A DNA stretch of 64,000 nucleotides from Bacteroidia bacterium (GTDB lineage: Bacteria; Bacteroidota; Bacteroidia; Flavobacteriales; Flavobacteriaceae), in NCBI GenBank assembly GCA_030427985.1, contig JAUIBH010000010.1, positions 1 to 64,000 on the forward strand. Direction: 5' to 3'. Within the stretch, counting starts at the first letter, position 1. Each line of letters starts with the position of its first letter. The notes beneath the pieces were generated by a model. That model saw only the letters and a list, made by a program, of their open reading frames with translations, searched no databases and was not told where the DNA came from. Positions 6,764 through 39,175 of the stretch are shown here, in pieces. The translations under genes and the position numbers were made by a program.

Positions 6764-7408
6764 TTAGTACCTTTTTTTTCTACCGCGTTTTCCTTTCTGA
6801 TTATTGTTGCTTCGGTTGGACTTGGATTGCCTGTTTTTGAGGAACTGTCCACTGTCGGTTAAGTTTTCCCCACTATTGGCCAAGTCAATTTGCCCATCGC
6901 TCAACTCCTTTAAATGTCCAAAAATAACCACATCTTCAACAGAGTCCTTGTTCCAATTCAGATAGCATTTCTTCATGTGGTTGGCAATGGCATACTCCAA
7001 ACCAGAACGCATATCCCCTTTTTCCCATTTTACGGCCACATCGATCATACGCTTGATGTTGTTTCCATAAAATCTGTATTTAGGGTGATTCTGTGGATAC
7101 TCCAATGGCTCGGGACGTTGTTGCAGGACTTCTTGTGAAGTAATGGGAAATGGTGAGTCCACATCCAGTTTAAAATCGGACATGATGAACAGTTGATCCC
7201 ATAATTTATGCTGAAAATCCGGAACATCCCTTAAGTGTGGTTGAAGATTTCCCATGACACTGATGATGGCTTGTGCCACTTTATTGCGTTCATCCCGGTC
7301 TGGAATGGACACGGCGTGATCTACCATTTTTTGAAAATGACGACCATATTCGGGAATAATGAGCTGTGAACGTTCTGTATTATATTCTAAGTTTTCTACT
7401 GTGTTCAA
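6764..7408 (-). CDS. DUF4290 domain protein
   Basis: 214 residues. It is soluble and mostly helical, with a basic Lys/Arg/Asn-rich tail (residues about 190-214, SNNNQKGKRGRKKRY). The body (MNTVENLEYNTERSQLIIPEYGRH) resembles the Bacteroidota family DUF4290, typically encoded just before murA as here. Function is unknown. The position suggests a cell-envelope or growth-linked role, and the basic tail could bind nucleic acid or membrane (inference). Confidence 0.8.
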   Translation of the reverse strand: MNTVENLEYNTERSQLIIPEYGRHFQKMVDHAVSIPDRDERNKVAQAIISVMGNLQPHLRDVPDFQHKLWDQLFIMSDFKLDVDSPFPITSQEVLQQRPEPLEYPQNHPKYRFYGNNIKRMIDVAVKWEKGDMRSGLEYAIANHMKKCYLNWNKDSVEDVVIFGHLKELSDGQIDLANSGENLTDSGQFLKNRQSKSNRSNNNQKGKRGRKKRY

Positions 7409-7491
7409 ATTGAAATGTTTAAAGAAATTAAATTAAAGGGAAGTCTATCCGATAACGTCTGCAAAATAATAAAATTATGGCAATTGTAGGT

Positions 7492-7779
7492 TTACAGTGA
7501 AATTACCCCTTCCACCACGGCTACTTCTTTGTATTTTAGGATCACTTCATCCGGACTTTCTAGGTAAACTGTAATGGAAAGACTGGTGTAGGTGCCTTTT
7601 TTGGATTTTTTGGATTCAATGACCGCACCTGTATTATCAAAAATATCGTGGATTTGCTCTATTTTTCCTTTATCCGTTGGAACAATAAATTTGTACAGAT
7701 AATCTGAAGGCCAACTGGTATTTTCCAACAACTGCTCCTTGAGTCTCTCATAAAACTCATCCGTGTTCTCCTTCTCCAT
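7492..7779 (-). CDS. DUF493 family protein
   Basis: About 95 residues from the ATG at 7779 (MEKENTDEFYERLKEQL). A longer frame reaching 7926 overlaps the facing gene and begins with unrelated residues, so it was rejected. WPSDYLYKFIVP and the KKGTYTSLSITVYLESPDEV segment fit the small ferredoxin-like DUF493 (YbeD) family, an ACT-like fold of uncertain regulatory role. It is divergent from the ATPase gene that follows. Confidence 0.75.
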   Translation of the reverse strand: MEKENTDEFYERLKEQLLENTSWPSDYLYKFIVPTDKGKIEQIHDIFDNTGAVIESKKSKKGTYTSLSITVYLESPDEVILKYKEVAVVEGVISL

Positions 7780-28044: not shown

Positions 28045-29415
28045 ATGTCATACACGGATAATATAGTAGCCTTGGCAACCCCTTCTGGTACTGGGGCCAT
28101 TGCGGTGATTCGCGTTTCGGGTCCAGATGCCATCTCTTTGGCCGATTCTATTTTTAAATCGGTTAAAGGAAAAAAATTGTCCAAACAAAAGAGTCACACC
28201 ATTCATTTGGGACATATTGTGGATGACGGAAAGGTTTTGGACGAGGTACTCGTTTCTATTTTTAAGGGCCCACATTCCTATACTGGCGAAAATGTAGTGG
28301 AAATATCCTGTCATGGATCTCCCTACATTCAACAGCAGATTATTCAATTAATCTTGCGAAAAGGGTGCCGAACCGCATCAGCGGGAGAATTTACCCTCCG
28401 TGCTTTTTTGAATGGGAAAATGGATTTGAGTCAGGCAGAAGCTGTGGCCGATTTAATTGCGAGCGACAGTGAAGCTGCCCATGATATTGCCATGCAGCAA
28501 ATGCGGGGTGGCTTCAGTAACGAAATCCAGAAACTGAGAGAGGAACTGTTGAATTTTGCTTCATTGATTGAGTTGGAACTCGATTTTTCACAGGAAGATG
28601 TTGAATTTGCAGATCGCACCCAATTCAATGAACTATTGACCAGAATTAGTGAAGTCCTAAAAAAATTAATTGATTCCTTTGCATTGGGGAATGTCATCAA
28701 GCACGGCATTCCAGTTGCTATTGTGGGACAGCCCAACGTAGGGAAATCAACGCTTCTCAATGTTTTATTAAATGAAGAAAGAGCAATTGTAAGTGATATT
28801 GCTGGGACTACCCGAGATACGGTTGAAGACCAAATCAGTTTGAATGGCATCAATTTTAGATTTATTGATACCGCCGGTATCCGCGAAACTGCAGATGTGG
28901 TAGAAAAAATAGGAATTGAACGTACATTTGATAAAATCGATAAAGCTAGACTAATCATCTTTCTTTTTGACCGAATGGACTTTGATCGTTCAGAACTGGA
29001 ACGTATCAAAAATCGCTATCCCAATAAACAATTGGTACCTATCTGCAATAAGGTAGATTTGTTGGAGCAATCCCAAATGGAAGAATTGCGGAAGGAAATT
29101 CCAAATGTTCTTTTTCTTTCAGCCAAGAACAAAACGGGAATACCAGAATTAGAAAAGGAACTGCTTGCCTTGGTGGACTCCGGCGCGTTGAGCGGTGACG
29201 AGACCATCATTACCAATAGTCGGCATTATGATGCCCTATTAAAGGCCTTGGAGGAAATCCAGAAAGTAAAAGAAGGTATGGAAATGGGATTGGCCAGTGA
29301 CCTTATGGCCATTGACATTCGCCAAGCTTTGTTTCATCTCGGAGAAATTACCGGAAGCGTCACTACGGATGATCTATTGGGAAATATTTTTTCCAATTTT
29401 TGCATCGGCAAATAG
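28045..29415 (+). CDS. mnmE: tRNA uridine-5-carboxymethylaminomethyl modification GTPase MnmE
   Basis: 456 residues. With MnmG it modifies U34 of certain tRNAs. It has an N-terminal folate-binding domain, a helical domain and an inserted G domain: G1 GQPNVGKST, G2/G3 TTRD and DTAG, G4 NKVD. It ends with the invariant CIGK, whose Cys is needed for modification. The last five codons and stop (29401-29415) coincide with an integration site. The 3' end now present was probably supplied by the inserted island, which preserved the protein sequence. Confidence 0.96.
   Translation: MSYTDNIVALATPSGTGAIAVIRVSGPDAISLADSIFKSVKGKKLSKQKSHTIHLGHIVDDGKVLDEVLVSIFKGPHSYTGENVVEISCHGSPYIQQQIIQLILRKGCRTASAGEFTLRAFLNGKMDLSQAEAVADLIASDSEAAHDIAMQQMRGGFSNEIQKLREELLNFASLIELELDFSQEDVEFADRTQFNELLTRISEVLKKLIDSFALGNVIKHGIPVAIVGQPNVGKSTLLNVLLNEERAIVSDIAGTTRDTVEDQISLNGINFRFIDTAGIRETADVVEKIGIERTFDKIDKARLIIFLFDRMDFDRSELERIKNRYPNKQLVPICNKVDLLEQSQMEELRKEIPNVLFLSAKNKTGIPELEKELLALVDSGALSGDETIITNSRHYDALLKALEEIQKVKEGMEMGLASDLMAIDIRQALFHLGEITGSVTTDDLLGNIFSNFCIGK
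29401..29415 (+). repeat. Attachment core attL in the 3' end of mnmE
   Basis: TGCATCGGCAAATAG encodes Cys-Ile-Gly-Lys-stop of mnmE. The same core recurs at 52855-52869 and 57191-57205 with only synonymous changes. An integrase gene begins 140 bp downstream. The 3' end of mnmE (thdF/trmE) is the known target of Salmonella genomic island 1. Confidence 0.85.
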
Positions 29416-29514
29416 ATTAGGAAAACAAAGGTCATTAAAAGAAACTAAACACCACTCTTTCAGTTAATTACTTATTTTTTATTTTTCCATTATTTCCTTT
29501 TTAGGTACATTTAT

Positions 29515-29566
29515 TGTGTCTCAAGTGTGTCTCATATTTAAATGAGACACAAAAAATGTGTCACAT
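29515..29566. repeat. Arm-type repeats at the integrase start
   Basis: Four copies of a TGTGTCTCAT-like decamer: 29515-29524, 29526-29535, inverted at 29542-29551, and a variant TGTGTCACAT at 29557-29566. The middle pair forms a perfect 10-bp inverted repeat. A fifth exact copy is at 52807-52816, near the other end of the element, which fits integrase or excisionase arm sites. Confidence 0.65.
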
Positions 29567-30713
29567 GATAAAAATTCATCTTAGAAAGAAAAAGCTAAAA
29601 ACAGGGAAACTGAGTATTTATATTGAGTATTACAAAGGAGCTACACAATTGGCCAATGGTAAGACCAAGCACCATAGGGATTACGAATATTTGCAACTCT
29701 ATTTAATACAAGACCCAAAAACCGCAGCTGAAAAGAAAAAAAACAAAGAACAGCTTGAACTGGCGGAGAAAATCCTAGCCATCCGGAAAGCCGAAGTCTA
29801 TCAAGGAAAGTACGATATTCAAAACAACCATAAAGGGAAAACCCAATTTTTGGAATACTATGAACTCAAAAAAGAGGAACGCTATCAAACCAAGGGAAAC
29901 TACGACAATTGGGATGCCGCTCAAAAGCATTTAGAAGCCTATTGTCCTAGGCACATCACATTTAATGATGTCAACCTAGTTTTTGTGAAGGGCTTTAAAA
30001 AGTATTTAGATACGGTGGCCGTTACTAAAAGTCAAAAAACACTTTCCCAAAATACTAAGCACACCTATTATAATAAATTCAAAGCCTGCCTTAATGCTGC
30101 CTTTGAAGAAGGTTATTTAAAAGAGAATTTTAATCGAAAGGTAAAAGGATTTAGTATGGGTGAGTCTACAAGGGAATACCTTACAGCCGATGAATTACAA
30201 CGCTTATCGAAAACTCCCTGCGATTTACCAATATTGAAAAATGCCTTTCTATTTTCAGTACTTACGGGTATCCGTTGGTCAGATGTCAATAAATTAAAAT
30301 GGTCGGAGGTCAGAGATGAGGGAATTGATGATAGTGGCAATCCTGTTTACCGAATCATTTTCAAACAAAAGAAAACCGATGGTGCTGAATATCTTTATAT
30401 ATCTCAACAGGCCAGACAGTTATTGGGGACACGAAGCGATTCCAAAGAAAGGGTATTTAAAGGCTTGCGATATAGCGCATATATGAATCTAAAATTGCTA
30501 CGTTGGTGTATGGATGCCGATATAAAAAAACATATAACCTTTCATTCCGCTAGGCATACAAATGCGGTTTTATTGCTGGAAAATGGGGCCGATATCTACA
30601 CCGTTTCCAAAAGATTGGGCCATCGAGAAATTAGAACTACTGAAATCTATGCCAAGATTGTGGATCAAAAAATGAAGGAAGCGGCTAATTTAATACCTCA
30701 TTTAAATCTGTAA
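29556..30713 (+). CDS. Tyrosine recombinase (integrase) of island B
   Basis: About 385 residues from the ATG at 29556 (or 29565). An arm-binding N-terminus (KIHLRKKKLKTGKLSIYIEY) and SAM-like core-binding domain precede the catalytic domain. The latter has Arg in TGIRWSDVNKLKW, HSARHT (His-x-x-Arg), His in LGHREIRTTEIY and the Tyr nucleophile in the same segment. The family is common in Bacteroidota integrative elements. Its place beside attL and the arm repeats identifies it as the enzyme for the mnmE site. Confidence 0.93.
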   Translation: MCHMIKIHLRKKKLKTGKLSIYIEYYKGATQLANGKTKHHRDYEYLQLYLIQDPKTAAEKKKNKEQLELAEKILAIRKAEVYQGKYDIQNNHKGKTQFLEYYELKKEERYQTKGNYDNWDAAQKHLEAYCPRHITFNDVNLVFVKGFKKYLDTVAVTKSQKTLSQNTKHTYYNKFKACLNAAFEEGYLKENFNRKVKGFSMGESTREYLTADELQRLSKTPCDLPILKNAFLFSVLTGIRWSDVNKLKWSEVRDEGIDDSGNPVYRIIFKQKKTDGAEYLYISQQARQLLGTRSDSKERVFKGLRYSAYMNLKLLRWCMDADIKKHITFHSARHTNAVLLLENGADIYTVSKRLGHREIRTTEIYAKIVDQKMKEAANLIPHLNL

Positions 30714-30715
30714 GG

Positions 30716-31447
30716 ATGGATAAAGCGTTTATTGTCGAAGCAATAATTATTTCCATCTGTCTATATTTTGGAGTAAGATTACTCTGGCGATATGGAAAAA
30801 TGTTTGTTTTATTCATGCTAAATGAGCCAACAAAATGGGACAAACAAATCGATAAGCCACGCTTGCTATTTCATTTAATTGGTCTAATTCTTTTAGCTTC
30901 GCCTTTTTATTCCAACGGCATTCAGCAGCTTATTCATTCCAAAAGCTTATTAGTTCAACTTAGCTATTGGATGCCATTTATAGCAGGAGCGTTTATTACT
31001 CAACTTTCCTGGACAACCAAATTCAGGGATGTCTATGGGGGAATCAAACGAAAAATAAGTCCATTCCGAAACCTTGAAACCACGTTTTCATCTGAAACCG
31101 AGGCTACAAAAATTTATGAACGTTTTAGCCAAGAGGGATATATCCAAACCGATATTGTCTCATTTATGGCATTCGTGAACCTAGAAACACCCATAAAAAG
31201 AATCATTTGGCAAGATAAAATAGCAAGACAGCCAAAACGTATCAACCGACAATCTCTCATTGAGTTTATGAGTAATTTGATTATCGGTTTTGAATCCTTG
31301 GAAAACCAACAGATTATAGCCCTTATTGACCGTTATTTCTGCAATCCATCCAACCAGTCCATAAAAATTTCATCAAAAAATGTTACGGATTGGAGAAATA
31401 ATGATTCAGCTTATCTACGAAAAATATCCAATCTAATTAAGGCGTAA
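30716..31447 (+). CDS. Hypothetical membrane protein of the island core
   Basis: 243 residues, 2 nt after the integrase stop and likely cotranscribed. It has hydrophobic segments at about residues 5-20, 48-66 and 80-100, then a soluble C-terminal half (about 110-243) with a conserved-looking ETEATKIYERFSQEGYIQTD stretch and many basic residues. I recognise no family. Its place between integrase and excisionase-like genes suggests a mobility or host-interface role (inference). Confidence 0.7.
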   Translation: MDKAFIVEAIIISICLYFGVRLLWRYGKMFVLFMLNEPTKWDKQIDKPRLLFHLIGLILLASPFYSNGIQQLIHSKSLLVQLSYWMPFIAGAFITQLSWTTKFRDVYGGIKRKISPFRNLETTFSSETEATKIYERFSQEGYIQTDIVSFMAFVNLETPIKRIIWQDKIARQPKRINRQSLIEFMSNLIIGFESLENQQIIALIDRYFCNPSNQSIKISSKNVTDWRNNDSAYLRKISNLIKA

Positions 31448-31567
31448 TTACATTCCATTTACAATTACGCTATTCTTTCCACTTGCCTTTTTAAAGACAT
31501 TCGTTTCCGTTAACAAAAAACAGCAACAAAGCGCTTTGTTCATTTTTAATCTTAAAAGCATGAAAAA

Positions 31568-31852
31568 ATGGACACTATTCAATTGGCTGAAAAGCTAGAT
31601 CGTATCGAAAAACTATTACTTGGTTCAAAAAAAGTTTTGAATCTTGAGGAAGCGGCAGAATACACAGGTATTTCGAGAAGCTATCTATACAAATTGACCT
31701 CAAGGGGCATTATTCCACACAGCAAGCCTAACGGCAAAATGATATTCCTATCAAAGGAAAAATTGGATGATTGGTTATTAACCAATGGTAGGAAATCCTC
31801 CCTAGATATCTCCAGGGAGGCAAACAGCTATATACTGAAGCATAAAAAGTAA
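31568..31852 (+). CDS. Helix-turn-helix protein, excisionase-like
   Basis: 94 residues. LNLEEAAEYTGISRSYLYKLTSRGIIPHSKPNGKMIF is the HTH_17/MerR-like DNA-binding domain of excisionase-type proteins of Bacteroidota mobile elements. It probably directs excision or regulates the following vapE/primase genes. The downstream gene begins 7 bp after its stop. Confidence 0.85.
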   Translation: MDTIQLAEKLDRIEKLLLGSKKVLNLEEAAEYTGISRSYLYKLTSRGIIPHSKPNGKMIFLSKEKLDDWLLTNGRKSSLDISREANSYILKHKK

Positions 31853-31859
31853 ATTTTTT

Positions 31860-33065
31860 ATGAAGACTGATCACGAAACTGGGCTTTACACGGTAAGAGA
31901 TCCCAAAAAGAAAACCATCTATGACTATACCCATGAGTATTTGATTGAGAAGTACGATATCATGTACAATGAAATATCGCACGATTTTCAAATTTCTTTG
32001 AAGGGTCTAAAAAAGTGGCATTACCTCAATTTGAACTCATTGATCATTGAACTGGCAAAGGCCAGCATTGATATCAGTACGGCAAAACTGGAAATCCTGA
32101 TTAAGTCCGAACTCATTCTGAAATACAATCCCATCAAGGAATATTTTGAGAACCTAACACCATGGGACGGTTTGGACCATATCGAAAAACTGGCTTCTTA
32201 TGTTCCTACCTATGAGCAGGAAGCTTTTATATACCATTTTAAAAAGTGGTTGGTAAGAGCTATAAAATGTGCCTTGGAACCGAACTATTTCAATAAGCAG
32301 GCCCTTATTATCAGTCATAAAGGTCAAAGCTCGGGAAAATCCACGTGGTGTCGTTTTATCTGTCCTCCGGAATTATCGGAATACATGGCGGAAGATATTA
32401 GTAACGACAAAGATGCCAGGATCCAGTTATGCCGAAATTTCCTGTACAACTTGGACGAACTGGCCGTTTTATCCAAAAAGGATGTGAACGCTTTAAAAGC
32501 TTTCTTTTCAAAAACATTTATCAATGAGCGACTACCCTACGATAGAAAGAACACGACCCTGCCCCGAATCTGTTCCTTTATCGGATCCACCAATATGTCT
32601 TCATTCTTGAACGACGAAACGGGTTCCGTACGTTGGTTGTGTTTTGAACTAATGGACAAAATCGATTTTGCCTACTCGAAGGAGGTTCAAATTTCGGATG
32701 TATGGTCACAAGCCTTTCATTTAGCCTATCACGATAAGAAATTCAATCCAGAATTGACACTTAAAGACATTGCAGAAAATGAAGAGCGGAATAAAAAGTA
32801 CACCCAGCTCACCACGGAACAGGAACTCGTGGCCAAGTATTATGAAAAATCCAATCATATGGATGATTTTGTTACTGCGGCTGACATTCAAATCAAACTG
32901 TCTTGCCTAAACCTAAGACTCAACAAAATCAATTTGGGAAAAGCTTTATCCGGATTCAACTTTCAGCGGGTCAAACATCCGAAACGGCAAGTGTATGGAT
33001 ATTTGGCAAAAGCCAATTTCACAGATACCCCTTGGGAACTGGAAATACCAATTAAGCGGAAATAA
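31860..33065 (+). CDS. VapE-like P-loop helicase/primase-associated protein
   Basis: 401 residues. The VapE-type ATPase domain (residues about 100-330) has Walker A HKGQSSGKSTWCRF and the acidic Walker B in LYNLDELAVLSKKDVNALKAF. DETGSVRWLCFEL is the sensor/Arg-finger region. The N-terminus (residues 1-90) is element-specific. VapE proteins act in replication of phages and islands. It lies directly upstream of the iteron-like array and primase gene. Confidence 0.85.
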   Translation: MKTDHETGLYTVRDPKKKTIYDYTHEYLIEKYDIMYNEISHDFQISLKGLKKWHYLNLNSLIIELAKASIDISTAKLEILIKSELILKYNPIKEYFENLTPWDGLDHIEKLASYVPTYEQEAFIYHFKKWLVRAIKCALEPNYFNKQALIISHKGQSSGKSTWCRFICPPELSEYMAEDISNDKDARIQLCRNFLYNLDELAVLSKKDVNALKAFFSKTFINERLPYDRKNTTLPRICSFIGSTNMSSFLNDETGSVRWLCFELMDKIDFAYSKEVQISDVWSQAFHLAYHDKKFNPELTLKDIAENEERNKKYTQLTTEQELVAKYYEKSNHMDDFVTAADIQIKLSCLNLRLNKINLGKALSGFNFQRVKHPKRQVYGYLAKANFTDTPWELEIPIKRK

Positions 33066-33070
33066 AGCCT

Positions 33071-33247
33071 ACCTACTTACCTATAGGCAAACAACACCCG
33101 ATAGGGAAAGGGAAATCTTTAGGTAAGATGAATAACCCCCAAATTACCTACATATTACCTAACCTACCTAAAACAACACTTTAGGTAAGTAAAATAGACA
33201 CCTACCTAACCAAAAAGACCCGTAAATAGGGCTTTAGGTAACTAGGT
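33071..33247. repeat. Iteron-like array of ACCTA/TAGGT motifs (candidate origin)
   Basis: Twelve ACCTA or TAGGT pentamers fall in 177 bp: 33071, 33079, 33120, 33146, 33157, 33162, 33166, 33182, 33200, 33204, 33235 and 33243. Several are in tandem or inverted pairs, as in TTTAGGTAAG and CCTACCTAA. About 0.35 would be expected by chance on two strands. Between a helicase and a primase gene this suggests a replication origin. Confidence 0.7.
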
Positions 33248-33273
33248 AGGCGAAATCAAGAAAATAAAAACTG

Positions 33274-34137
33274 ATGAAAGAAAAAAGAATAACCTGCGAA
33301 AAAGCCCGCAACGTTTGCATCGTCCAAACGCTTGCAACGTTGGGGCACTTTCCCAGTAAACAATCGGAAAAAGAAGCTTGGTTTCCAAGTCCGTTCCGGT
33401 CGGAAACCCAAGCCTCTTTTAAGGTCTCCAAAACCCTCAACCGATGGTACGACCACGGGGAGGGTATAGGGGGTAATGTAATCGACCTGGTGTGCAAATT
33501 GAAACAGATTTCAGTAAAGGAGACTCTGGAATTTTTGAGTGACAATAGTTGTTCTTTTTCCTTTCAGCAGCAACCGATTAAAAAGGAATCCCCGAAGCTT
33601 GAAATAACCCAAGAACTTCCGATTCGGCATCCGGCCCTATTCGATTATCTCACAGAGAGGAAAATACCCCCTACCCTCGCCCATGGTTATTTGAAGCAAG
33701 TCCATTTCATTTTGAACTCCAAAAAATATTTCGCACTTGGTTTACGGAACGATATGGGGGGATGGGAACTTCGGAACAGATTTCAAAAGCATTGTTGTTC
33801 CCCAAAGGCAATCACCCTCATTAGTAGAGGAAAACAAAACATTACTGTTGTCGAAGGCATGTTCGATTTTCTTTCCCTATTGGTCATTCGACCTAAATGG
33901 TTTGTGGATTCGGATGTGTTGGTTCTAAACTCATTGGCTTTTGCCTCCAAAATCAGCTCCATTTTAGAAAACTACAATGGTATCTATCTCGCCCTGGACA
34001 ATGACGCATCGGGTGAGAAATGGACGCAATATCTAATCAAGGCATATCCAAGGGCCATAGATGAAAGAAATTGCTTTACCAGTTTCAAGGATATAAACGA
34101 AAAATTGATAGCCCATGACCAGCGATACTATCCATAA
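33274..34137 (+). CDS. Toprim-domain DNA primase of the mobile element
   Basis: 287 residues. An N-terminal zinc-finger-like region (residues 40-75: FRSETQASFKV, RWYDHGEGIGGNVIDLV) keeps the CHC2 fold pattern but lacks its cysteines. The Toprim domain follows with VVEGMFDFLSLL (catalytic Glu) and LALDNDASGEKW (acidic DxD). It probably primes replication at the adjacent array. It overlaps the mobC-like gene by 23 bp. Confidence 0.85.
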   Translation: MKEKRITCEKARNVCIVQTLATLGHFPSKQSEKEAWFPSPFRSETQASFKVSKTLNRWYDHGEGIGGNVIDLVCKLKQISVKETLEFLSDNSCSFSFQQQPIKKESPKLEITQELPIRHPALFDYLTERKIPPTLAHGYLKQVHFILNSKKYFALGLRNDMGGWELRNRFQKHCCSPKAITLISRGKQNITVVEGMFDFLSLLVIRPKWFVDSDVLVLNSLAFASKISSILENYNGIYLALDNDASGEKWTQYLIKAYPRAIDERNCFTSFKDINEKLIAHDQRYYP

Positions 34138-34585
34138 AAAATATAGCCCCGTCGAACATTCCGAGTTGGTTGCTCTTGATGTATCAGGAAAACCAAAATG
34201 TAATTCTGATAAGAATTCGAGATGTGTGTCTGTGGACACAATCTCGCCCGCTCCCGATGGTCGCAGGGAAAAAAAGAAGTGTTTTAAGGGGAAAAGGGAA
34301 TTGGTAAAATTCCGCTGTACAACCTACGAGAAAAAACTATTGATGGCAAAGGCGAAGCTCTGTGGGCTGACGTTGAGCGAATTCCTAAGGAGAGCGGCCA
34401 TGGAACAAACCACCCTGGAACGATTGTCCGACGAGGAAATCGAAATCTATCAAATGCTGGCCAAGTACCATAACAACTTTAAGTCGATTGGAAACATGTT
34501 CCGGAAAAAGAGTCCGAAACTGACCGAGATGGTCTATGATACGGCCAAGCAAATCAAGGAACACCTCAAAAGATTCGGGTCATGA
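34115..34585 (+). CDS. MobC-like relaxosome protein
   Basis: 156 residues. After a variable N-terminus, residues 62-150 (LVKFRCTTYEKKLLMAKAKL, GLTLSEFLRRAAM, NNFKSIGNMFRK) match the ribbon-helix-helix MobC/MbpA accessory proteins that bind oriT and help the relaxase. It overlaps the primase gene upstream and the relaxase downstream by 4 bp. Confidence 0.82.
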   Translation: MTSDTIHKKYSPVEHSELVALDVSGKPKCNSDKNSRCVSVDTISPAPDGRREKKKCFKGKRELVKFRCTTYEKKLLMAKAKLCGLTLSEFLRRAAMEQTTLERLSDEEIEIYQMLAKYHNNFKSIGNMFRKKSPKLTEMVYDTAKQIKEHLKRFGS

Positions 34586-35439
34586 TAGGCAAGGGTAAAT
34601 CAATTTCCCATACCCGGGCTTCCATGGGATATGGTTGGAACCAGGAAAAGAATGCCGAAGTAGTTTTCAGGCAACATTTGGTTGGTGAAAACCCCAAAGA
34701 AGTCACCGAAGAATTCCGACGTATTCAAGAAATGAACCATGTCTGTGAACGCAATACACTTTCCTTTGTATTAAGCCCGACCATAAAAGATGGCCAACGC
34801 TTAAAGAAGGAAGAACTGGAAAGGATTGCCAAGGAGTTTATGGAGAGAATGAAGCTCGGGGAACGACAGGCCATTGCCTTTGTGCACCGAGATAAGGAAC
34901 ACACCCACATTCATTTGTACGTCAACCGTATCGACTTCAAAGGGGTCGCATACAATGACAGCTTTATTAGCAAACGAAGTCAGAAAGCCGCCGAAAACGT
35001 AGCGGAGACCATGCAATTGACCACCGTAAGGCAAGTACAAATGGAGCGGGAATTCAACACCCAAGAACTACGAAATGAAATAAAACGAAGGCACGAACTG
35101 ACCTTGAAATATCAAAAACCTGAAAACTATCATCAATTTATGGAAGGAATGAAGTCCAATGGTGTCGAAGTCAAACCGAGTATCAATAGACAGGGGCAGC
35201 TCCAAGGCTTTCGGTTCGAATTCCAAGGGCATAGCTTTAAAGGCAGTGAAATCAACCGGAATATGTCCATGGCCGGAATTGGTAGGGAATTGACACGATA
35301 CAATACCCCACAGAAAATCATTTCGCCAAAGAACACCATAAAGCTATTGGACAAAGTGGTGCCAGTTCCCGAAAAGCTCTTGGCATCCCTGGTTAAAAGG
35401 GCAATCAAAAAATCCATCGACATTGGAATGGGCATTTAA
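34582..35439 (+). CDS. Relaxase/mobilization nuclease, HUH type
   Basis: 285 residues. The metal-binding HUH motif is HTHIHLYVNRI, with His107, His109 and His111 (HxHxH). The N-terminal segment SISHTRASMGYGW begins the nuclease domain. The size matches small relaxases of Bacteroides mobilizable elements. It would nick oriT and pilot single-stranded DNA through a helper conjugation system. Coupled to the MobC-like gene (ATG within its stop region). Confidence 0.88.
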   Translation: MIGKGKSISHTRASMGYGWNQEKNAEVVFRQHLVGENPKEVTEEFRRIQEMNHVCERNTLSFVLSPTIKDGQRLKKEELERIAKEFMERMKLGERQAIAFVHRDKEHTHIHLYVNRIDFKGVAYNDSFISKRSQKAAENVAETMQLTTVRQVQMEREFNTQELRNEIKRRHELTLKYQKPENYHQFMEGMKSNGVEVKPSINRQGQLQGFRFEFQGHSFKGSEINRNMSMAGIGRELTRYNTPQKIISPKNTIKLLDKVVPVPEKLLASLVKRAIKKSIDIGMGI

Positions 35440-35451
35440 ACCTGAAATCTT

Positions 35452-35907
35452 ATGAACAAACTTGAAACCATTACTGAACTATTGATCAACGAGCTGGCCG
35501 ACTTCGAAAAGAACGTACAACAATTAGGCGACCAAATAGAAAGGGCCGAATCTCTTCGGATAAAATTCGATTTATCACCTATTAAGGGTTTAATCTCACA
35601 ATTGGAAGAACTTGGCAGACGGGAAACAGAAAGACGTGAACAATACCTGGACCGTTTGCAACGAAACCTACAACAAGCCAAGATCTACCCGAAATGGGCG
35701 GTTATAACCTTTATGGTCTTCTTTGGAATTTCATTATCAACTGGGTTCTATGCATACAATTTAAAATCAGATATGGAAAATGAAAAAAATGAGGCTTTTT
35801 TGCAGGGTGAAAGAAATGGAATAATGCATTTAGAACAGTTTTTAAAAGAAACACCTGGCGCAACTAAACTTTACGACCAATGGCGCATTCATAAAAGCAA
35901 AAAGTAG
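35452..35907 (+). CDS. Coiled-coil, single-span membrane protein of the mobilization operon
   Basis: 151 residues. A helical coiled-coil N-terminal half (residues 1-78, with heptad-like NVQQLGDQIERAESLRIKF and LISQLEELGRRETERREQYL) leads to one membrane helix at about 83-101 (WAVITFMVFFGISLSTGFY) and a charged tail. It lies 12 bp after the relaxase. It resembles the third gene of Bacteroidota mobilization operons; it may link the relaxosome to the membrane (inference). Confidence 0.7.
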   Translation: MNKLETITELLINELADFEKNVQQLGDQIERAESLRIKFDLSPIKGLISQLEELGRRETERREQYLDRLQRNLQQAKIYPKWAVITFMVFFGISLSTGFYAYNLKSDMENEKNEAFLQGERNGIMHLEQFLKETPGATKLYDQWRIHKSKK

Positions 35908-35939
35908 ATTGTCGTGAACATCCGAAAAGAAAACTATTC

Positions 35940-36995
35940 TCATTTGACAGCTGTTTCCGGTCTATCGTAATATTTTTTTCGTAACCAAAAGGAAACCCGA
36001 ACCAATAAAATCAAAGCGGGAACTTCGACCAATGGACCAATTACCCCTGCAAATGCCTGTCCTGAATTAAGCCCAAAAACCGCAATTGCCACGGCAATCG
36101 CCAATTCAAAATTATTTCCTGCAGCCGTGAAAGCTACCGAAGCAGTTTTGTCATATTCCGCACCCATTGCTTTGGTGAAGAAAAATCCAATGATGAACAT
36201 TACCGTAAAATATATTAACAATGGTATAGCAATGATGATTACATCCATTGGGATTTCAACTATTAGTTCGCCTTTAAGTGAAAACATTACCACAATGGTA
36301 AACAACAATGCAATTAGGGTTAAGGGTGAAATGGTTGGTATAAATTTTTGGGTGTACCATTCTTCCCCTTTTAATGTAACTAAAATTAGTCGGCTTAAAA
36401 TTCCCATTACAAACGGGATGCCTAAATAGATTGCGACACTTTCTGCTATTGTGCCGATTGAAATATCTACAATTGCTCCTTCAAATCCAAAATGGGGTGG
36501 AAGAACGGTTATAAAAATCCAAGCATAAAAACTGTAGGCAAACACCTGAAATATGCTATTTAACGCAACTAAACCTGCTCCATACTCGCTACTTCCCTCA
36601 GCAAGGTCATTCCATACAAGAACCATAGCAATACAGCGTGCCAGACCTATTAAAACAAGCCCGACCATATATTCCGGATAATCGCGCAAAAACGTGATTG
36701 CCAAAACGAACATTAGAACCGGACCTATTATCCAATTGAGAACAAGGGATATGGAAAGAATCTTTGTGTTTCTGAAAACCTTGGGCAAGAGCGAATAATT
36801 GACCTTTGCCAAAGGTGGGTACATCATCAATATCAGACCTATGGCGATCGGGACATTGGTAGTTCCCTTATTGAAGGTATTTATCAAATCGGGAAAGGTC
36901 GGAACGAAATATCCAATTCCGACGCCAATGGCCATGGCCACGAATATCCACAAGGTTAAATTTCTATCGAGGAAGCTTAGTTTTTTTGAGGCCAT
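35940..36995 (-). CDS. acr3: ACR3-family arsenite efflux transporter
   Basis: 351 residues with ten membrane helices. It exports arsenite from the cytoplasm using the membrane potential. [22 protein letters not shown] contains the Cys of ACR3 carriers, and the N-terminal [20 protein letters not shown] is typical. It is the last gene of the island's arsenic operon, 3 bp after arsC. Confidence 0.94.
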
Positions 36996-36998
36996 TTG

Positions 36999-37631
36999 TT
37001 AGTTATTGATTTGAGAGAAAACATAGGATAGTTCGGTTGCTATTTGCAGACTTCTTTCTTTGTATTTTTCGGCTTGTTGTGGCGTATTGTCAAATGCTTT
37101 TGGGTCTTCAAAAGTTATAGCAATGCGTTTTTCTGCTCCGGGAACAAAAGGACAAGCTTCATTGGCCGAATCACAGGTCATAATAGCGGCAAAACCGGAT
37201 TTTGGGTTAAAATCATCATCCAACTTCTTTGAAAAGCCTATGATGGGGTGCTCATTGTCCGCATATTTAATGCTATAAACAGGGTTTTCGTTTTTTGAAA
37301 TCTGGTTTATTTTAAATCCTGAATTTTGTAACGTTTTAGCAATCATTGGAAAAAGTGCCGTGGCCTCCGTTCCCCCTGAATAACAGAACACATTTTTAAT
37401 AGTAAAGTAGTGTGCCATGGTCTGTGCCCAAACTTGCGATAAATGGCTTCTTCTTGAATTATGGGTACAAATGAAATTGATACGTATTTCTTGGTTTTCA
37501 GAAACCTTTGACCGTATAAAATCGATTAGCGGCATTAAAACTTCTTTTCGTCCCTCCGAAATAGTCGAGGTATCTAAATTTTTGATTGTCTTTTCAATTT
37601 CAGGAAAAACGGTTGGTGGTGCGTCTATCAT
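36999..37631 (-). CDS. arsC: Arsenate reductase, low-molecular-weight phosphatase type
   Basis: About 210 residues from the ATG at 37631; a longer frame to 37682 adds non-conserved residues. The signature CX5R loop FICTHNSRRSH places Cys55 and Arg61. A second cysteine pair is in TCDSANEACPF. It is longer than Bacillus ArsC (about 140 residues) because of an N-terminal helical region. It reduces arsenate to arsenite for export by the adjacent ACR3. Confidence 0.9.
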   Translation of the reverse strand: MIDAPPTVFPEIEKTIKNLDTSTISEGRKEVLMPLIDFIRSKVSENQEIRINFICTHNSRRSHLSQVWAQTMAHYFTIKNVFCYSGGTEATALFPMIAKTLQNSGFKINQISKNENPVYSIKYADNEHPIIGFSKKLDDDFNPKSGFAAIMTCDSANEACPFVPGAEKRIAITFEDPKAFDNTPQQAEKYKERSLQIATELSYVFSQINN

Positions 37632-37651: not shown

Positions 37652-38119
37652 TTAGCAACAATTTCCATCCGGTGCGCAGCACGGTTCTTCAGATAGGTTG
37701 GATAGTTTTAATCTTGGCTTTTCCGATGGGATGTTACATTTCTCCCTAGCAAGACAATCGGTTTGTTTGGTGGTAAGCAGAAAGTTCTTTCCGTTGAAGT
37801 CAAGACCGAACTTCCCTATGGTCTCCCCTTGGTATTCTACCTCAATTTCCAAATCTTCAATACCTAAAACTTTTTCTGATAGTTCAATGATATTGAGTAG
37901 TTTTTCTGGATGTAACCTATGGTCATAATCATCAGCGTTCCAAAGTTGAAAATTGGCAACTTCCTCATTACGTACAGTCCCACCGCAATCTATAAAGTGT
38001 TTGGTAATCCTGCCAACTTCAGTAACGTGAAAATGGCTGGGTACTAAATCACCATTGGGTAATTGAAAAGCAATTCTGTCCAACTGGGTAAGCTTTTGTT
38101 TGATTTGTGATAGCTTCAT
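37652..38119 (-). CDS. Ars-operon protein with cysteine-rich tail
   Basis: 155 residues. It resembles a family of small proteins found beside arsC in Bacteroidota (DUF6428-like, from memory). Residues 1-110 form a compact domain with FHVTEVGRITKHFIDCGG. The tail ends EEPCCAPDGNCC, four cysteines in ten residues, with two more at about 127 and 133. The thiols could bind As(III) and pass it on (inference). It lies between the dead ArsC paralogue and arsC. Confidence 0.72.
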   Translation of the reverse strand: MKLSQIKQKLTQLDRIAFQLPNGDLVPSHFHVTEVGRITKHFIDCGGTVRNEEVANFQLWNADDYDHRLHPEKLLNIIELSEKVLGIEDLEIEVEYQGETIGKFGLDFNGKNFLLTTKQTDCLAREKCNIPSEKPRLKLSNLSEEPCCAPDGNCC

Positions 38120-38124
38120 AATTC

Positions 38125-38760
38125 TTATTGTTTTTGTGATCGGGTCAAATAATCGATTCTAGATGCCACATAAAGCATTTCCCTGGCTATGACTCCATGG
38201 GAATATAAGGGAACCGATATTTGCATCGGGTCATCTTCCTTAAACATGGTATCTTCCACAAAAATCTTCAAGCTTTTTTCTGAATTTTCAATGGAATTTT
38301 GGTCTTTATAGTTCACATTCCAACTATCGGACCCGAAATTGACATTGTATGAGTAGGGCTTCTTGCCGCTAGCATTGCTAACCTTGAAGCCATACTTCTT
38401 TAACGATGCCAGCCCGGATAAGGGCTCGCTTGCCACCTTAAGTCCCGCGGATTGAATGTCATAACCGTTAAGTTCATACTTTATTAGACCTGTTTGTAAC
38501 CAAATAGCAGCAAGTTGGCTCTTTGTTTTGTTAGTGCTATCTATGAATACTATGCTTGCATTACCATTGGTCCTTTTTTCCTTAGAGATTCTTGAGGCCA
38601 ATTGGTCCAGCAGAACGCTCCTTTCCTTTTCAATACTCGAAAAGGTAGTTTCAATGGAAGTTATCGATTTCACGATTTTGTTTCTTAGCTTTTGTGCATG
38701 TATCCCATTCTGGAATAAAATAAGCAAGGTTAAAATGATGTTGGTTCTGATTGTTTTCAT
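38125..38760 (-). CDS. Secreted, catalytically dead ArsC paralogue
   Basis: 211 residues with a signal peptide (residues 1-22, cleavage after HAQ). The remainder aligns with the neighbouring ArsC in length and pattern: IEKTIKNLD against IVKSITSIE, then SQVWAQT against AAIWLQT, then GFKI against GFKV. The CX5R loop has become FIDSTNKTKSQ, with Asp74 for the catalytic Cys and Lys80 for the Arg. It cannot work as a phosphatase-type reductase, yet the frame is intact. It is the first gene of the ars operon after arsR. A periplasmic oxyanion-binding or sensing role is possible (inference). Confidence 0.75.
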   Translation of the reverse strand: MKTIRTNIILTLLILFQNGIHAQKLRNKIVKSITSIETTFSSIEKERSVLLDQLASRISKEKRTNGNASIVFIDSTNKTKSQLAAIWLQTGLIKYELNGYDIQSAGLKVASEPLSGLASLKKYGFKVSNASGKKPYSYNVNFGSDSWNVNYKDQNSIENSEKSLKIFVEDTMFKEDDPMQISVPLYSHGVIAREMLYVASRIDYLTRSQKQ

Positions 38761-38777
38761 AATATATTTAATTTGTT

Positions 38778-38796
38778 TATCGCAATAAAACGATTA
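38778..38796 (-). promoter_or_regulatory. ArsR-type operator before the ars structural genes
   Basis: TATCGCAATAAAACGATTA matches the sequence in front of arsR (39157-39175) at 14 of 19 positions and is an imperfect inverted repeat (ATCG/CGAT). It lies in the 52-bp gap before the operon's first structural gene. Confidence 0.5.
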
Positions 38797-38812: not shown

Positions 38813-39145
38813 TTAACAACAGTCTTCGTTCTCTGGAAGGTCCTGGTCTAGAAAATCCCCCATAACGGCTTTCATGACCGTCCAATTATCCTTGTCGATA
38901 CAATAGCACACACTCGTTCCCTCGACATTACCCTTGACCAATCCCAAGTTTCGCAATTCCTTAAGATGCTGTGATATCGTGGGCTGGGCCAAACCGATTT
39001 CATCGACCAAGCTCCCGCAGTAACAACTATCCATTTTGAACAATTGCTGCAGAATGGCAACACGCGCCGGATGCCCAAAGGCTTTGGCGAATATGGCGAT
39101 TTGATTCTGCTGGTCAGTGAATATCTCTGTTTTAGCAAGTCCCAT
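38813..39145 (-). CDS. arsR: ArsR-family arsenic-responsive repressor
   Basis: 110 residues. FGHPARVAILQQLF, then DEIGLAQPTISQHLKELRNLGLVKG, is the winged helix. Thiols for As(III) are plentiful: DSCYCG before the recognition helix, VCYCID after it and a terminal DCC. It is the first gene of the ars operon and presumably represses itself and the following genes through the two related palindromes. Confidence 0.9.
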   Translation of the reverse strand: MGLAKTEIFTDQQNQIAIFAKAFGHPARVAILQQLFKMDSCYCGSLVDEIGLAQPTISQHLKELRNLGLVKGNVEGTSVCYCIDKDNWTVMKAVMGDFLDQDLPENEDCC

Positions 39146-39155
39146 ATCTATTGTT

Positions 39156-39175
39156 TAATTGCAATATTACAATTA
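39156..39175 (-). promoter_or_regulatory. ArsR operator upstream of arsR
   Basis: TAATTGCAATATTACAATTA is an almost perfect inverted repeat (18 of 20 positions symmetric) 11 bp before the arsR ATG. A related sequence lies at 38778-38796. Confidence 0.6.

Follow-up and report, generated by a model that had tools for sequence, protein, structure and literature searches.

A conserved ArsC-fold protein without catalytic residues and with predicted export lies behind ArsR-type sites in Flavobacteriaceae

The window analysed here is a stretch of 64,000 nucleotides from a bacterium of the Flavobacteriaceae (positions 1 to 64,000 of contig JAUIBH010000010.1). It contains an ars operon on its minus strand with the gene order arsR-X-DUF6428-arsC-acr3, where X denotes the gene under study. 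The genes and elements of the operon are as follows:

35940..36995, minus strand: Acr3 arsenite efflux transporter (TIGR00832, 8.6e-133, over the cut-off)
36999..37631, minus strand: long-form ArsC, intact, with CTHNSRR, Cys pair and DP loop by alignment (TIGR02691, 3.9e-9, under the model cut-off)
37652..38119, minus strand: DUF6428 protein with a Cys-rich C terminus (PF20001, 6.9e-67)
38125..38760, minus strand: X, predicted exported ArsC-fold protein without catalytic residues, 211 amino acids
38518..38541, minus strand: former catalytic P-loop of X by alignment, residues 74-81, DSTNKTKS (CTHNSRRS in ArsC)
38695..38760, minus strand: signal peptide of X, residues 1-22, with predicted cleavage between Ala22 and Gln23 (by eye, from the conserved A22-Q23 and the Q-rule)
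38776..38795, minus strand: ArsR-operator-like palindrome 5' of X, AATCGTTTTATTGCGATAAA (sequence pattern)
38813..39145, minus strand: arsR, ArsR/SmtB-family repressor (PF01022, 5.4e-13; NF033788, 7.7e-18)
39155..39174, minus strand: ArsR-operator-like palindrome 5' of arsR, AATTGTAATATTGCAATTAA (sequence pattern)

The reading frame of X starts with ATG and runs for 211 residues with no internal stops, in agreement with the preliminary description of the locus, where the frame was called intact. Read-through or a wrong start is ruled out by the family-wide conservation of the ATG and of the signal-like N terminus. The same description placed X between arsR and arsC, which holds for the adjoining arsR but not for arsC, from which X is separated by the DUF6428 gene. 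The DUF6428 protein (PF20001; window 37652-38119) recurs in the Bacteroidota ars operons read and carries CCAPDGNCC at its C terminus; the arsR product of the window also terminates in CC. In the stretch 28045-36000, a tyrosine-recombinase-like gene recognised by eye stands directly after an mnmE-like gene, and primase-, MobC- and relaxase-like genes, likewise recognised by eye, precede the ars operon. This stretch is probably an integrative mobilizable element, and no exact end repeat of at least 14 bases was found near the integrase-like gene. Tra-like genes were seen by eye near three other X loci (L038, L041, and L044).

X is recognisably related to the ArsC encoded in its own operon (BLASTP E = 3e-6, 24% identity over 118 columns). 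A Pfam scan of X gave no relevant match (best 0.19, unrelated), an NCBIfam scan gave none, and over 20 X proteins Pfam listed no LMW-PTP model, with scattered weak matches each in at most two of the 20 members. A sequence profile of X compared with the PDB reached a best E of only 0.44, and all six matches listed are LMW-PTP or ArsC proteins. The AlphaFold2 model of X built on a 38-row alignment including ArsC rows has a pLDDT of 91.1 and a pTM of 0.86, and the top PDB match of the first model in Foldseek is the arsenate reductase 3t38 (Corynebacterium Cg_ArsC1'; E = 4.3e-5). With an alignment of 20 X rows only, the model (pLDDT 88.0, pTM 0.85) keeps this fold and draws VIA-align matches of the same kind; the fold is therefore independent of the ArsC rows and is ruled out as an artefact of them. 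VIA-align comparison of both models with the PDB gave Z scores of up to 11.6 (rmsd 2.4, 120 aligned), and by title the 50 matches listed for each model are LMW-PTPs, related arginine phosphatases or arsenate reductases; the comparison spans residues 63-206 of X, the helices N-terminal to residue 63 being barely tested by it. As modelled, X has the LMW-PTP/ArsC fold. X had been described as an ArsC paralogue with the ArsC fold, for which structure prediction against arsenate reductases was the suggested check; the sequence and structure matches agree with that description, and no different fold was recovered.

The active site of ArsC is not preserved in X. In the alignment, Asp74 stands at the Cys of the ArsC motif CTHNSRR and Lys80 at its second Arg. 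Across 20 aligned X proteins Asp74 and Gln82 are kept in all, Asn77 in 18, and Ser81 in 17, and four further members not included in the alignment (L032, L041, L097, and L098) likewise have the Asp. The Arg position is occupied by K in nine proteins, I in four, T in two, N in two, and S, L, and M in one each, with Arg in none of the 20; Glu79 is found in 11/20. The earlier reading of a CX5R loop turned into D-x5-K thus gave residues 74 and 80 correctly, and Asp74 extends to the whole alignment, while Lys80, with nine of 20, is no family feature. None of the 20 X rows has residues in the 22 columns that include the final redox Cys and the general acid of the DP loop, and at the second redox position, that of the other resolving Cys, X has non-Cys residues. 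Mature X contains no Cys at all in 18/20, a single Cys being present in L005 and L042. With long-form ArsC (window 36999-37631; 3t38) X has in common the ArsC-domain fold, the aligned stretch preceding it, the loop Asn/Ser and the operon, but in X the nucleophile Cys, the Arg, both resolving Cys and the DP loop with its acid are missing, and a predicted signal peptide is present. Through these losses X cannot run the ArsC reaction and is left without a thiol cluster for As(III). W87, Y95, W147, and Y197 are invariant across the 20 X proteins; the columns of Trp87, Tyr95, and Tyr197 are aromatic in most ArsC rows too, and Trp147 is common to five of the exported-looking ArsC rows described below.

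The N terminus of X, MKTIRTNIILTLLILFQNGIHA followed by Q, was divided by eye into a basic part, a hydrophobic part and an Ala-Gln part. Gln23 is present in 20/20 aligned X proteins and Ala22 in at least 90%. This N terminus was read with the Bacteroidetes Q-rule for signal peptide cleavage (PMC5837995), and the feature of that rule, a hydrophobic N terminus with cleavage before Gln, is judged by eye to be present in X; one member, L097, has no Gln. The SPI-type N terminus seen by eye, together with Gln23, bears out the signal peptide first proposed for X, and export of the protein is strongly suggested by these sequence features.

Homologues of X, for which a search elsewhere had been proposed, are present in other Flavobacteriaceae, and in the tree 20 X proteins form one clade with support of 100/99. 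Members that are 32 to 51% identical to the X of the window still all keep Asp74 (20/20). A protein search of 299 Flavobacteriaceae genomes retrieved six further clear members, most of the other weak matches being ordinary ArsC, and the full frames read among these (e.g., L009, L011, and L012) carry CTHNSRR. A profile search of genome_contigs retrieved 14 X loci, in Maribacter, Croceivirga, Allomuricauda, Arenibacter, Pricia, Lacinutrix, Saonia, Luteirhabdus, and others, and a single-sequence scan of genome_contigs with X was unproductive. The larger searches scored at most seven first-look candidates per genome (397 Flavobacteriaceae and 395 class genomes) or at most ten (the 299 Flavobacteriaceae and 296 phylum genomes), so that absences in them are not final. 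Of the 397 Flavobacteriaceae genomes sampled, 12, counting that of the window, have an X match of at least 204 bits, with three more matches at 69 bits or less, and the 395 class and 296 phylum genomes contained nothing above 90 bits besides the window's own X. In the window's genus, where all candidates were scored, X was found at no less than 197 bits in 12 of 60 genomes, again including the window's; many of these are near copies. Plasmid records gave no X match, and viral_contigs no relative of X. The class search passed 1e-12 in 61 of 395 genomes, counting that of the window; 18 regions among the weaker matches were read, and in all 18 the ArsC-like protein has the loop Cys and Arg.

The gene directly upstream of X is arsR in 20 of the 23 different loci assessed, near copies being counted once and L098, which ends at a contig edge, left out. 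The conserved operon position of the preliminary description is therefore upheld at these 20 loci and fails at L003, L076, and L040, where no arsR adjoins X. The remaining partners vary between loci and include DUF6428, ArsC, Acr3, a calcineurin-like phosphoesterase, an aquaporin-like channel, and a GcvH-like protein; X is therefore not bound to one operon partner. In a one-contig genome (G811), X is the sole gene behind arsR on that strand, and the genome gave no P0002-type (long-form) ArsC match at 1e-5 and no Acr3 match at 1e-20, so being a partner of these two proteins does not fully account for X. The statement that G811 has no ArsC would be wrong, since a short classical ArsC is present elsewhere in the genome. 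The idea of X as the partner of long-form ArsC is weakened by G811 and by the X loci without a local arsC. Acr3 matches were likewise absent from G113 and from G690, an assembly of many contigs that is 94% complete. The neighbours of X in G829 are OsmC- and Rrf2-like (by Pfam) and SDR-like (by eye) genes, with an ars operon elsewhere, and the arrangement in G236 is similar, its ars operon also being elsewhere.

Other genes recur in these neighbourhoods. A calcineurin-like metallophosphoesterase of about 257 residues, for which we know of no ars role, is found repeatedly in ars operons (L042 6627-7400, L038 7138-7911, L033 7499-8272, and others). A GcvH-like gene stands between the phosphoesterase gene and acr3 at L038 7924-8304 (by Pfam) and at L041 7897-8277 and L044 7920-8300 (by likeness). 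In L033 and L034, a MIP-family channel gene (6832-7497; L033 by Pfam) comes next after X, and no Acr3 or ArsC was recognised in the 12.6-kb locus.

A closely similar palindrome that resembles the site before arsR is present in 18 of the 18 arsR-X gaps examined, which measure 46 to 69 bases. As a degenerate 20-mer, the palindrome pattern, which was drawn from the X loci themselves, occurs exactly twice in the 3.63-Mb assembly to which the window belongs (88.9% complete), each time in the ars operon with X, and it has four matches in the window at up to three mismatches, compared with 0.46 expected. A looser pattern gave 44 matches in ten X-bearing genomes, some of them overlapping on two strands, and approximately 36 of these, by coordinate count, lie at an arsR homologue or at X. 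The X genes without an adjoining arsR (L003, L076, and L040) retain ArsR-operator-like elements, two each. A site behind arsR is not unique to X: a second similar site occurs there in Flavobacteriaceae ars operons without X (L103 at 5950, L104 at 5422, L105 at 2778, and L107 at 3837) and in X-less operons of other families (L062, L063, and L066; L068 shows only the site before arsR). The site may therefore simply pass to whichever gene comes first, and it is a fair claim that X stands behind an ArsR-type site rather than having brought one. Control of X by ArsR is suggested by the pattern of these sites.

The dN/dS ratio of X is 0.22 (L007/L008), 0.13 (L038/L044), 0.18 (L033/L034), and 0.16 (L035/L036) in four pairs, and 0.11 in a fifth (L003/L076) whose dS is close to saturation. 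The four pairs argue that X is selected, as had been supposed from the intact frame; judged from its coding sequences, X is under purifying selection. The X of Maribacter flavus, the nearest relative found (69%), has a premature stop at codon 50, and that of Lacinutrix neustonica (L041) a frameshift, sequencing error being possible in both. After the M. flavus stop dN is 0.146 and dS 0.871, and before it dN is 0.302 and dS 0.882; these values suggest a recent break. Erosion of the frame in close relatives, raised earlier as a point to look for, is thus seen at two loci, while the four pairs are purifying. As X is sparse (12 of 397 genomes) and broken in two relatives, it appears dispensable in places.

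Ten of the 18 regions read encode an ArsC-like protein that has a hydrophobic, signal-like N terminus and an intact CX5R:

L056 5104-5844, L058 4312-5028, L059 4109-4819, L061 4502-5209: exported-looking ArsC with CX5R and Cys pair, in ars loci
L062 3262-3984, L063 4595-5314, L066 4384-5121, L073 3936-4649: exported-looking ArsC with CX5R and Cys pair, in ars loci
L064 4585-5262, L067 4066-4731: exported-looking LMW-PTP/ArsC-like proteins with CETNTRR and a partial redox Cys set, no ars gene recognised adjoining

An Ala-Gln site was seen by eye in five of the ten (L056, L062, L063, L064, and L067), and the L067 protein had no Pfam or NCBIfam match at 0.01. The eight exported-looking proteins in ars loci (L056, L058, L059, L061, L062, L063, L066, and L073) resemble X in the hydrophobic N terminus, the ArsC sequence, the ars loci and, in L058, L059, L061, L062, and L063, the Trp at the column of residue 147, but differ in that they keep the full catalytic set. 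The Cys is therefore not always lost in signal-bearing ArsC homologues, a question posed at the outset: CX5R is kept in other Bacteroidota and Asp is present in every X read. Among the 18 regions, exported-looking Cys-ArsC are confined to families other than Flavobacteriaceae, and in the trees they fall outside the X clade. In a two-outgroup tree, which has long branches to both outgroups and a poorly fixed basal fork, X and the exported-looking Cys-ArsC may or may not share one origin of export. From their sequences, it is possible that the exported-looking CX5R ArsC of other Bacteroidota are extracytoplasmic arsenate reductases. The exported-looking ArsC of L056 adjoins a cytoplasmic-type ArsC, and L071 3898-5070 and L072 3788-4960 encode 390-residue proteins in which ArsC appears by eye to be fused to an N-terminal hydrophobic, membrane-like domain.

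We consider it fairly probable that X, which some marine bacteria carry next to their ars genes, is an exported, probably arsenic-induced pseudoenzyme derived from a long-form (LMW-PTP-type) ArsC, which acts by non-covalent binding. ArsR derepression in arsenic would switch X on, and the protein would be moved to the periplasm and work there without catalysis. With every catalytic residue lost, X probably binds something outside the inner membrane instead of doing chemistry; a partner protein is the most likely target, ahead of a small ligand that is neutral or cationic. The backbone amides of the LMW-PTP/ArsC loop form an anion hole; it accommodates the thiolate and, together with the Arg, the oxyanion. 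By the same chemistry, the invariant carboxylate of Asp74 would fill the old anion hole, making the Arg dispensable and shutting out arsenate and phosphate; the oxyanion pocket of X is probably closed in this way. By description, X can be likened to AioX and ArrX, which are periplasmic As sensors in arsenic loci but belong to a substrate-binding-protein family and are paired with a histidine kinase. Some receptor-PTP D2 domains carry Asp in place of the Cys; these domains are cytosolic and eukaryotic and have a PTP fold class different from that of X. According to passages of two papers, the pseudophosphatase domains of receptor PTPs (D2; PTPRU) are, like X as read here, PTP-type P-loop enzymes turned to binding or regulation (PMC7320164, PMC2638020).

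It is unlikely, although credible, that X binds a neutral or cationic arsenical, a metal ion or an organic amine through Asp74 and serves in periplasmic buffering or presentation. The invariance of Asp74, its acidic or polar loop neighbours, the four invariant aromatics (W87, Y95, W147, and Y197) and the arsenic-type regulation suggested by the palindromes are consistent with such a ligand. The conserved aromatics are, however, largely common with ArsC rows and may so be structural, and both a second invariant acidic residue and a conserved thiol for As(III) are absent.

The preliminary description also put forward a periplasmic arsenate or phosphate binder. In such a protein the P-loop would still cup the oxyanion for sensing or delivery. 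The length of the loop, the largely kept Asn77 (18/20) and Ser81 (17/20) and the link of X to ars genes agree with this proposal, but the Arg that grips the oxyanion is now K, I, T, N, S, L, or M, the thiolate position holds an invariant carboxylate with Glu79 as well in 11/20, and no thiol for As(III) is conserved, which makes such a binder improbable. A decaying relic, that is, an inactive secreted ArsC duplicate under loss that is kept by hitchhiking on mobile ars elements, is highly improbable. It would account for the premature stop in the closest relative, the frameshift in L041, the patchy distribution, and the relaxase- and integrase-like genes near the window operon and Tra-like genes near L038, L041, and L044 (by eye). 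Against it stand the dN/dS of 0.13 to 0.22 in four pairs, the dN of 0.146 with dS of 0.871 after the M. flavus stop, the constancy of Asp74 in such divergent proteins, and two g2 genomes in which X persists at a distance from ars genes and still has operator-like sites. Least probable of all is a dominant-negative partner or scaffold of another exported ArsC/LMW-PTP-like protein, for which exported-looking CX5R ArsC do exist in Bacteroidota, as does, in part of one paper, the precedent of a receptor phosphatase dimer with the active D1 of one molecule touching the inactive D2 of the other (PMC2638020), but a search with X at 1e-3 in the window's genome returns only X and the operon's ArsC, and the regions read place exported-looking Cys-ArsC only outside the Flavobacteriaceae.

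A literature search of open-licence papers, by titles and opening abstract lines, found no exported or catalytically dead ArsC described. The nearest case among these is an arsC-like gene pair of Pantoea without contribution to resistance (PMC5360009), and the word "periplasm" is absent from the main text of a 2018 review of arsenic resistance genes (PMC6205960). Tentatively, the exported pseudoenzyme X may found a class of ars proteins, that of an exported, thiol-free, dead arsenate reductase, arsenic-induced and with a periplasmic binding or regulatory role, even where no Acr3 or long-form ArsC is found. The usual account of arsenic resistance in bacteria is reduction in the cytoplasm plus efflux. 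A conserved dead ArsC, seemingly exported and standing behind an ArsR-type site, suggests a periplasmic arm of the arsenic response that is, as far as searched, undescribed. X offers a named gene for deletion and a small soluble protein for assay, and the exported-looking ArsC with intact sites raise the question of whether these bacteria reduce arsenate outside the cytoplasm. If this reading is true, X and the exported-looking catalytic ArsC together would mean that the ArsC fold was relocated by Bacteroidota to the outside of the cytoplasm and put to use again there.
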